From the NCBI GenBank assembly GCA_016278615.1, contig JADQBM010000022.1, forward strand, positions 1 to 43,408: a stretch of DNA of 43,408 nucleotides. The letters are read 5' to 3'. The notes below the pieces were generated by a model, which saw only the letters and a list, made by a program, of their open reading frames with translations, was not told the DNA's origin and made no database searches. This DNA is from Clostridia bacterium. GTDB lineage: Bacteria; Bacillota; Clostridia; Peptostreptococcales; JAAYPU01. The position numbers and the translations under genes were made by a program. How positions within the stretch are numbered: the first letter of the stretch is position 1; each line of letters begins with the position of its first letter. Below, piece after piece: positions 6,979 to 43,408 of this stretch.

Positions 6979-7195
6979 AGATAATATAAGAGATAACAGA
7001 TAAGAGATAATAGTTTAGGAGGATTTTGCAGTACTGATGGCAAAATCTTCATTTATATAAACTTTACAATACTATTATCCATATCCTATTTGCTTATAAT
7101 GGAAGTTTTATAAAGTAAAACTCACCATAACTATTATCTTTTATCTGTTATCTTTTATCTCTCATTTCTTCCTGTTATCTGTTATCTATCTTTAG
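6979..7195. repeat. Complete heptad/hairpin element, copy 1 of a tandem pair
   Basis: Left heptads AGATAAT, (ATAAG), AGATAAC, AGATAAG, AGATAAT end at 7011. AGTTTAG and GAGG follow, then hairpin GATTTTGC (7022-7029)...GCAAAATC (7040-7047). A unique middle of about 50 bp precedes the second hairpin AGTTTTA-TAAAG-TAAAACT, then CACCATAACTA. Right heptads at 7134-7188 are TTATCTT, TTATCTG, TTATCTT, TTATCTC, TCATTTC, TTCCTG, TTATCTG, TTATCTA. Together with the next copy it fills the 580-bp gap between nifS and rny; I see no supported gene there. Confidence 0.85.
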
Positions 7196-7277
7196 TCTCT
7201 CTCTTATTACTAACCTAAATATCATTTTAGAATAACCGTTGGGATTTGTAAAGGAAAAGGCTTCCATAATAGAATAT

Positions 7278-7497
7278 AGATAAGAGATAATAGATAAGAG
7301 ATAATAGTTTAGGAGGATTTTGCAGTACTGATGGCAAAATCTTCGATTCGTTTTAAATCGCAGAAGCTCTCGGATAGGTAAAGCTCCCATCCCAACAAAT
7401 TTAATATAATGGAAGTTTTACAAAGTAAAACTCACCTTAACTATTATCTGTTATCTATTATCTTTTATCTCTCATTTCTTCTATTATCTTTTATCTC
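7278..7497. repeat. Complete heptad/hairpin element, copy 2 of a tandem pair
   Basis: This has the same organisation as the element at 6979-7195. The 39 bases from AGTTTAGGAGG to GCAAAATCTTC (7306-7344) are identical to 7012-7050. Left heptads are AGATAAG, AGATAAT, AGATAAG, AGATAAT. Right heptads at 7444-7497 are TTATCTG, TTATCTA, TTATCTT, TTATCTC, TCATTTC, TTCTA, TTATCTT, TTATCTC. The middle differs from copy 1 and holds a separate small stem (TTCGATT...AATCGCAGAA). The array ends one base before the rny terminator stem. Confidence 0.85.
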
Positions 7498-24822: not shown

Positions 24823-25172
24823 AGAGGATTTTGCAACTGCAAAATCCTCTTTATAAATCTTAAATCTTAAATCCTGAAGCCCTAGCTCAAATCTATGATT
24901 TGATGCGCAGGTCTCATACAAGTGGAACTTTCTAATCTATGATTAGTTAAAGTTGCCATTCGCTCCGTGGAAACTCTCCAATGTTGAAGCCCTAGCAGTA
25001 ATCTTCGATTACGTCGCAGGTCCAACGAAACAAGTGGAACTCTTCAATCTTGGATTGGACAGAGTTGCCATTCGCAACGAGATAGAAATCTCTGATTTCG
25101 TAATCGAGACTGCGGAAATTTAAATTTCGTCGTTGAGACTGCTTGATTGGCTAAGAGTTTTTCAGTTAAATC
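24823..25172. repeat. Hairpin plus two tandem covarying stem-loop units
   Basis: The region opens with a perfect 12-bp hairpin, AGAGGATTTTGC-AACT-GCAAAATCCTCT. Three heptads follow: AAATCTT, AAATCTT, AAATCCT (24855-24875). Two units of about 110 bp then start at 24875 and 24985, each opening TGAAGCCCTAGC. Unit 1 has stems TCAAATC/GATTTGA and AACTTT-CTAATC/GATTAG-AAAGTT. Unit 2 has GTAATC/GATTAC and AACTCT-CAATC/GATTG-AGAGTT. Two smaller stems follow (GAAATC/GATTTC at 25085-25099; GAAATTTAAATTTC at 25115-25128), and the region ends TTAAATC at the stop codon of the PBP gene. The 390-bp gap holds no supported gene. Confidence 0.85.
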
Positions 25173-38123: not shown

Positions 38124-38344
38124 TTCGGTGTTCGGTGTTCGTAGTTGTAATGCGGTTCGCAGTTGGTAGTTCTAAGTTCGAAGTTTATAGGCAATTATTA
38201 TAATGAAAGATTTTGCTCCCACAAAATCCTCCATAAACCCTGAAGTCCTAGTCAGAATCTTTGATTCTGTCACAGGTCTCATACTGGAATTCTAAAATCT
38301 CTGATTTTAATAGAATTCTTCAGTTAAATCTTAAATCTAAATTG
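38124..38344. repeat. TTCNNAG heptads, hairpin and third covarying stem-loop unit
   Basis: Heptads TTCGGTG, TTCGGTG, TTCGTAG, an 11-base unit, TTCGCAG, TTGGTAG, TTCTAAG, TTCGAAG, TTTATAG run from 38124 to 38190. A hairpin GATTTTG...CAAAATC (38209-38228) follows. A unit opening TGAAGTCCTAG (38241) has stems CAGAATC-TTT-GATTCTG and GAATTCT-AAAATC-TCT-GATTTT-AGAATTC. Two TTAAATC heptads and TAAATTG end at 38344, three bases before the stop codon of the dacF gene. The gap of about 320 bp holds no gene; the scpAB promoter is at its left end. Confidence 0.82.
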
Positions 38345-42143: not shown

Positions 42144-42154
42144 CTGCCTTGTTT

Positions 42155-42322
42155 AGATAATAGATAACAGATAATAGATAACAGTTAAAGATGGTTTTGA
42201 TACTCAAAATCTTCAATTATAACAATTATTTTTAGAATTGTTTCTATATTTTATAAAATATGAAAGTTTTGCCAAGCAAAACTAACCTTAACTATTATCT
42301 ATTATCTTTTATCTTTTATCTT
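42155..42322. repeat. Complete heptad/hairpin element
   Basis: Left heptads AGATAAT, AGATAAC, AGATAAT, AGATAAC, AGTTAAA (42155-42189) lead to a left hairpin GGTTTTG-ATACT-CAAAATC. After about 55 AT-rich bases comes the right hairpin AGTTTTGC-CAA-GCAAAACT (42265-42283), then AACCTTAACTA and heptads TTATCTA, TTATCTT, TTATCTT, TTATCTT (42295-42322). It occupies the gap between xerD and deoB and ends 12 bp from the xerD stop codon. Confidence 0.87.
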
Positions 42323-43219: not shown

Positions 43220-43284
43220 TTTTTTCTCCTGTTTTTCCAATCTTTAGTTATATTATACAACAACACAGATGAAAAAAAAATAAA

Positions 43285-43408
43285 AGATAAAAGATAAGAA
43301 ATAAGAGAGTTAACAGATAATAGAAAGATAGATAAGAGATAATGAAAAGATAGATAAGAGATAATGAAAAGATAGATAAGAGATAATGAAAAGATAGATA
43401 AGAGATAA
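43285..43408. repeat. AGATAAN heptads passing into a 22-bp tandem repeat
   Basis: Heptads AGATAAA, AGATAAG, AAATAAG start at 43285. From 43323 a longer unit, GAAAAGATAGATAAGAGATAAT (first copy one A shorter), repeats four times at 43323, 43344, 43366 and 43388; the fourth is cut by the window end. The 22-bp unit is itself made of AGATAA words. It lies about 65 bp upstream of the xerD start. Confidence 0.85.

Follow-up and report, generated by a model that had tools for sequence, protein, structure and literature searches.

The closest described systems to the repeat reported here are the REP, BIME and REPIN sequences (GTAG- or CGTC-tagged), which are short intergenic hairpins of high copy number that hold no gene and often come as hairpin pairs. 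Members of a second group, the IS200/IS605 elements, lack inverted terminal repeats, have hairpins close to their ends and do not duplicate the target; they insert on the 3' side of a conserved motif of four or five nucleotides. In classical MITEs, the two ends of the element form terminal inverted repeats and the target is duplicated. One survey describes dimers lying within palindromes in A. variabilis GTAG-15, T. roseum GTAG-23 and H. neapolitanus CGTC-1 (PMC3733652). Insertion sequences that target REP palindromes (IS621, other IS110 members, IS1397) are covered by another report (PMC1525189).

We analysed a stretch of 43,408 nucleotides from a Clostridia bacterium (the window) and compared its hairpin units with these systems. 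The units do not form a tandem RNA array; each is a copy of a dispersed mobile DNA repeat that carries no gene. Like REPs, the element is palindromic, intergenic and present in high copy. Unlike the GTAG and CGTC families, it lacks the unpaired GTAG or CGTC tag and has ends (TGAAG and TGC/GGC/CAGT) that are both paired, its first hairpin (HP1) has conserved words of its own with bulges, it inserts cleanly into REP loops and its own loops, and among 44 Y1 loci no RAYT gene is flanked by it, in contrast to GTAG-type REPs. With the palindrome-associated, Y1-dependent derivatives of IS200/IS605 it shares the lack of target-site duplication, hairpins near the ends and the lack of inverted terminal repeats, whereas its stems reach the very ends instead of being subterminal, and only a T at position -1 takes the place of a fixed left target tetranucleotide. 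Insertion into REP palindromes also recalls the REP-targeting insertion sequences, but those carry a transposase gene and the element, at less than 100 bp, carries none. A classical MITE was considered and set aside, as each half of the element is a hairpin of its own and no target duplication is seen. The element is most likely a variant of the REP/BIME-like repeats that is non-autonomous, moves as folded single-stranded DNA, targets hairpin loops and depends on an enzyme in trans. No description of it was found in the open-licence literature, either by its features or by its conserved words, nor in what was consulted of PMC3733652, PMC1525189, PMC6006769 and PMC2267715; it is a widespread clostridial repeat that has apparently escaped cataloguing.

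The element is about 84-92 bp long (about 84 nt in the uninterrupted form of this genome). Each copy consists of two adjoining hairpins, HP1 (TGAAGYCCTAG..CAGGTCTCA) and HP2, so that an uninterrupted copy reads TGAAGYCCTAG, hairpin, CAGGTCTCAT, second hairpin and a CAGT end. The stems extend to the element ends, from TGA to TCA in HP1 and from GCA, GCC or ACTG to TGC, GGC or CAGT in HP2. No gene was seen between the two hairpins of any element.

In the window, TGAAGYCCTAG occurs at 24875, 24985 and 38241, followed each time by the hairpins that had been noticed earlier, and all three are matches of a covariance model of HP1 (R1). Copy 3 is uninterrupted and spans 84 nt (38241-38324, forward strand), as seen in the sequence, the model match and the folds. 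Its HP1 (38241-38281, stem type C, TCAGAATC..GATTCTG) matches R1 at 38241-38282 with 59.4 bits (E 1.9e-15), and its HP2 (ACTGGAATTCTAAAATC..GATTTTAATAGAATTCTTCAGT, 38283-38324) is recovered in both RNA and DNA folds. Compared with shuffled sequences, the fold of copy 3 has a z of -2.82 as RNA and -4.26 as single-stranded DNA.

The other two copies had been taken for tandem units of 110 bp, a description that proved wrong: copy 2 lies within the HP2 loop of copy 1. Copy 1 runs on the forward strand from TGAAG at 24875 to CAGT at 25166. Its HP1 (24875-24916, stem type A, TCAAATC..GATTTGA) is predicted by the fold and matched by R1 at 24875-24917 (53.7 bits, E 1.5e-13). The left arm of its HP2 (GAAACTCTCCAATGT, 24970-24984) pairs with 25143-25166 in the predicted fold of 24870-25170, and sequence, fold and joined flanks show that this right arm (TTGATTGGCTAAGAGTTTTTCAGT) is where copy 1 actually ends on the right. 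Between the two arms sits copy 2 (24985-25142, forward), placed by the flank join and the fold, with an HP1 of stem type B (AGTAATC..GATTACGT, 24985-25025; R1, 39.1 bits, E 1.3e-8) and further nested hairpins, e.g., at 25034-25072. When copy 2 was excised in silico, GAAACTCTCCAATGT met TTGATTGGCTAAGAG to form a stretch of 30 nt that differs at a single position from an intact HP2 elsewhere in the genome. The joined HP2 has 29 matches with at most three mismatches in other loci of the genome, the best with one mismatch. The nesting follows from this near-intact HP2 together with the long fold, in which the flanking arms pair.

Copy 1 is also interrupted by a hairpin module of 49 bp (AGTGGAACTTTC..GCCATTCGCTCCGTG, 24921-24969, forward) between HP1 and HP2. 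Uninterrupted copies (e.g., L013) read CATACAGAAACTC at this site, where interrupted copies hold the module. The small module (AGTGGAACTTTC or AACTCTCC..GTTGCCATTCGC..) recurs between HP1 and HP2 at L009, L010, L026, L027 and L042 as well as in the window, in several copies at the site CATACA^GAAACTC, and it looks as if it were a separate mobile unit. The stem AACTCT..AGAGTT, which the earlier note had assigned to the second unit, is indeed present there, but from a reading of the sequence it appears to belong to such a module inside that unit.

Exact matches to TGAAGYCCTAG number 67 in the genome (40 forward, 27 reverse), compared with 5 for the reversed control word; one of the 67 (L021) appears to be a fortuitous occurrence in coding sequence. 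The R1 model, built from 29 of 53 distinct HP1 sequences, finds 73 matches. Three HP1 stem types (n = 29, 23 and 7) account for the 59 copies with a readable HP1, and 58 of the 59 keep at least five perfect inner HP1 pairs. HP2 likewise has several stem types. HP1 type C is accompanied by HP2 AATTCT in 6/6 readable cases, and with types A and B the HP2 is in most cases AACTCT. The genome is a draft, and many of its contigs end within an element copy.

Covariation was analysed in 77 distinct sequences from 59 sources. Fitting the alignment to the model tilts the counts in its favour, and the shuffles leave relatedness in; with these reservations, 96.9% of cells were paired, compared with 84.0% (sd 0.6) in shuffles, and double-sided changes occupied 143 cells against 39.7 (sd 4.4). 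When partners were slid, at most 45.4% were paired and at most 26 double changes were left. Two measures were unremarkable: how many pairs showed double changes (80/500 shuffles equally high) and how many pair types occurred (49/500 shuffles). T-A gives way to C-G at the outermost pair in 16 sequences, G-C to A-T at the pair next to the bulged A in 7, and C-G to T-A at the following pair in 16; covarying changes recur across different genera. The earlier observation that the arms change and yet stay paired was borne out both within the genome and across genomes, and covariation remained strong once more copies had been aligned. Folds were better than those of shuffled sequences for RNA (z -1.6 to -4.7, five sequences) and for single-stranded DNA (z -3.4 to -4.5, three sequences), with the outer TGA/TCA part of HP1 staying open in the DNA fold. 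Some second hairpins (L095, L127, L136, L196, L198), and in L198 also the first, have CCCAAGA..GATTGG arms, which to judge from their letters would put tandem G-A mismatches in the stem.

Copies are not confined to this genome. Among at least 99 pattern-matched genome-contig stretches, 31 hold the same arrangement with other stem sequences, and the matches listed include Peptoniphilus lacrimalis, Neofamilia massiliensis, Urinicoccus massiliensis, Emergencia timonensis, Gallicola sp., Clostridium sp. Cult2 and Bacillota MAGs. Four further stretches (L063, L065, L090, L128) fitted the loose pattern but were removed on visual inspection for their coding look and lack of matching hairpins; the rest failed the pattern, and a few of these (e.g., L131, L145, L154) look like variants. 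R1 was positive in at least 10/391 genomes of the class, at least 11/198 of the order (including G001, which shares the family of the source genome) and at least 3/398 of a phylum sample, each count including the source genome; these are lower bounds, with 15 candidates scored per genome in the class and phylum searches and 31 in the order search. In G001 the exact words gave no match and the covariance model gave five. One other clostridial family, which we take to be Peptoniphilaceae, was positive in 19 of 41 genomes, with up to 53 copies (G448); it includes G461 (matching Neofamilia massiliensis) and G455 (matching Urinicoccus massiliensis). The distribution is patchy. In viral contigs, 24 pattern matches were judged by eye to be chance. 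The earlier note had regarded its reading as refuted if covariation vanished in a larger alignment or if no copies beyond three existed; since covariation is strong and the model search of the genome and its relatives turned up far more than three copies, neither was the case. L200 and L201 (G257, G360) carry a related repeat, again of two hairpins, whose HP1 (TTGACCTAACCC..GGTAGGTCA, beside GCGGCAACCATCTGCC..) is more perfect; its sequence suggests a wider superfamily.

We found that insertions are precise, without duplication or loss of target bases, and lie in the loops of palindromes, which are either REP-like repeats of other families or hairpins of the element itself. Two copies in G455 lie within a REP, and excising exactly TGAAG..GACGGC (92 nt) restores GGGGCGATTTTATATCGCCC, a palindrome that is empty nine times in the G455 loci examined, with no base duplicated or lost. 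The other 3/5 distinct elements tested in G455 gave no exact join. In the source genome, excising 83 nt at L027 and L036 restores the HP2 of another copy that is intact once elsewhere; this is an exact join in 2/8 nested cases, the other six being inexact or, in several cases, cut by contig ends. Copies in G461 lie within GGGGACATT..TGTCCCC palindromes, of which 13 empty forms were found, partly around a RAYT-like gene, and copies in G089 lie within GTAGGGGCGACGT..GTCGCCC, with 15 similar empty forms. Empty-site joins were obtained for 0/7 elements in G089 and for 2 of 12 in G461, the latter not like clean palindromes. The exact filled and empty sites make movement of the repeat directly testable.

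The two flanks of an element pair with each other better than permuted flanks in the 26 elements of the named contigs (mean -12.43, compared with -8.45, sd 0.66; 0/300 permutations) and in the small set of 11 from the source genome (1/300). No such excess over permuted flanks shows in G448 (115/300) and G461 (101/300), whose targets are all of a single palindrome family, a setting in which the test is uninformative or negative. The test kept 11/33 elements of the source genome, 26/29 of the named contigs, 41/42 of G448 and 6/8 of G461, excluding those without a clean HP2 end by the fold rule. A stricter flank alignment test was negative for the copies of the source genome (p 0.39) and of G448 (p 0.52). 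Many copies in the source genome sit in 7-bp repeats and not in clear hairpins. Only the T at -1 recurs in the flanks (0.54 bits, compared with <0.1 bits at -2 to -8, in 35 distinct flanks of the named contigs; 0.96 bits at -1 in the source genome). Replication-strand bias was not visible in G448, where 23 copies are on the plus and 30 on the minus strand, with no relation to local GC skew.

Taken together, we are highly confident that the element is mobile. Spread by homologous recombination or slippage without transposition, the arms being kept alike by template switching (arm-to-arm copying), would account for the head-to-tail arrays of two to four copies at 84-85 bp spacing (L016, L015, L037, L047), which are alike within an array and resemble tandem duplications, and for L052, which resembles a deletion between two loops. 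We consider it very improbable as a general explanation, because clean and exact insertion into palindromes of unrelated sequence requires that the element ends be cut and joined, and because copies differ in flanking sequence.

The units had been said to sit at the 3' ends of genes. This holds for both sites in the window, and single copies may act as 3' hairpins; genome-wide, a position at 3' ends is not the rule. By simple ORF calls, the copies with readable neighbours in the source genome form 26 clusters, of which 19 lie in tandem gaps (7 sense, 12 antisense), 4 in divergent and 3 in convergent ones. The 53 copies of G448 form 38 clusters (12 divergent, 12 convergent, 10 tandem with 5 sense and 5 antisense, and 4 called inside ORFs). 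Neither genome shows an orientation bias of copies relative to genes. Since copies occupy all kinds of intergenic gap, sense and antisense, a transcript-level role of the element is unlikely.

The same observations bear on whether the repeat is a functional RNA family, i.e., an sRNA or 3' UTR element, possibly with a three-way junction closed by the flanking inverted repeat. Its hairpins are stable and covarying and its flanks often pair with each other, as such a family would have it, but orientation bias is absent, divergent and convergent gaps are alike occupied, copies nest in one another's loops, and the supposed closing stem consists of REP-like palindromes that are also found empty in the same genomes. 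Nor does Rfam give a match to the element at the gathering threshold: there was none in the window, the four matches in eight related loci were riboswitches and tRNAs, and a further search returned four weak matches far below the cut-offs. We therefore regard an RNA family as improbable. The result is also a caution: hairpins between bacterial genes can covary without there being a functional RNA.

The source genome encodes six Y1 HUH genes. Among the three families of no-duplication transposases tested there (Y1, IS110 and Y2), only these six were found, which makes the RAYT-kind Y1 HUH proteins the first candidates for moving the element. Three of the proteins were scanned, and their nearest model, the REP-associated NF047646, scored 68-76 bits, below its cut-off of 80. 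The element was found in the examined flank of 2 of the 44 Y1 loci and on both sides of none. We also considered the Y1 genes as autonomous copies of the element and rejected this, as none is bordered by it. G448, with its 53 copies, has no intact Y1 and only a broken fragment, and G277, G257, G011 and G440 hold copies without any Y1 match. RAYT-like genes were seen amid dense REP-like repeats (GTAGGG.., GGGGACA..TGTCCCC) at L061 1-700, L296 7346-8260 and L341 900-2500, and the palindromes surrounding them are the element's targets in some genomes. A RAYT-type enzyme as the actual mover is possible but less likely than not.

Another transposase, such as IS110 or one from a family outside those searched, could do the same. 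IS110 members insert in REPs, which are the target of five IS families (PMC1525189); IS110 genes are present in G448, G461, G455 and G195. However, no IS110 match was found in the source genome, G440, G277, G089, G411, G428 or G011, a Y2 (IS91-type) match was found only in G277 among 15 genomes, and the two hairpins of an element were never seen to enclose a gene. IS110 and Y2 were rejected as mobilisers in the source genome, from which both are absent, and we judge a mover of this other kind unlikely. The hairpins, the loop targets and the absent target duplication favour a single-strand-specific enzyme, and the element is rather likely to move as folded single-stranded DNA.

The best explanation of the whole is probably a non-autonomous, two-hairpin mobile repeat that is moved in trans into hairpin loops. 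The element would travel as a folded single strand, and an enzyme supplied in trans would cut and join that strand. The target would be the single-stranded loop of an extruded hairpin, with a T just before the insertion point. The stems would covary because only copies that still fold continue to move. The earlier contrast between selection for folding and simple copying was a false one: a mobile element is being copied here, and its folded form is retained. More tentatively, the element may represent a family of hairpin-loop specialists, with two flush hairpins, clean insertion into the loop of any extruded palindrome, whether of another selfish repeat or of its own copies, repeats parasitising repeats like nested dolls, and movement by a single-strand-specific enzyme. 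If loops of extruded hairpins are truly targeted, the repeat would report naturally, in living cells, on the formation of cruciforms or lagging-strand hairpins, and it would exemplify a selfish repeat that lives within another.

The window also contains many AT-rich heptamer tandem repeats (TTATCTA, ATCTCTA and similar) with periods of 7, 14, 21 and 22 bp, at 43281-43408, 7134-7187, 7276-7307, 7437-7496, 42154-42192 and 56-103. Related heptamers (TTAATTC, TTAAATC) border many element copies throughout the genome.
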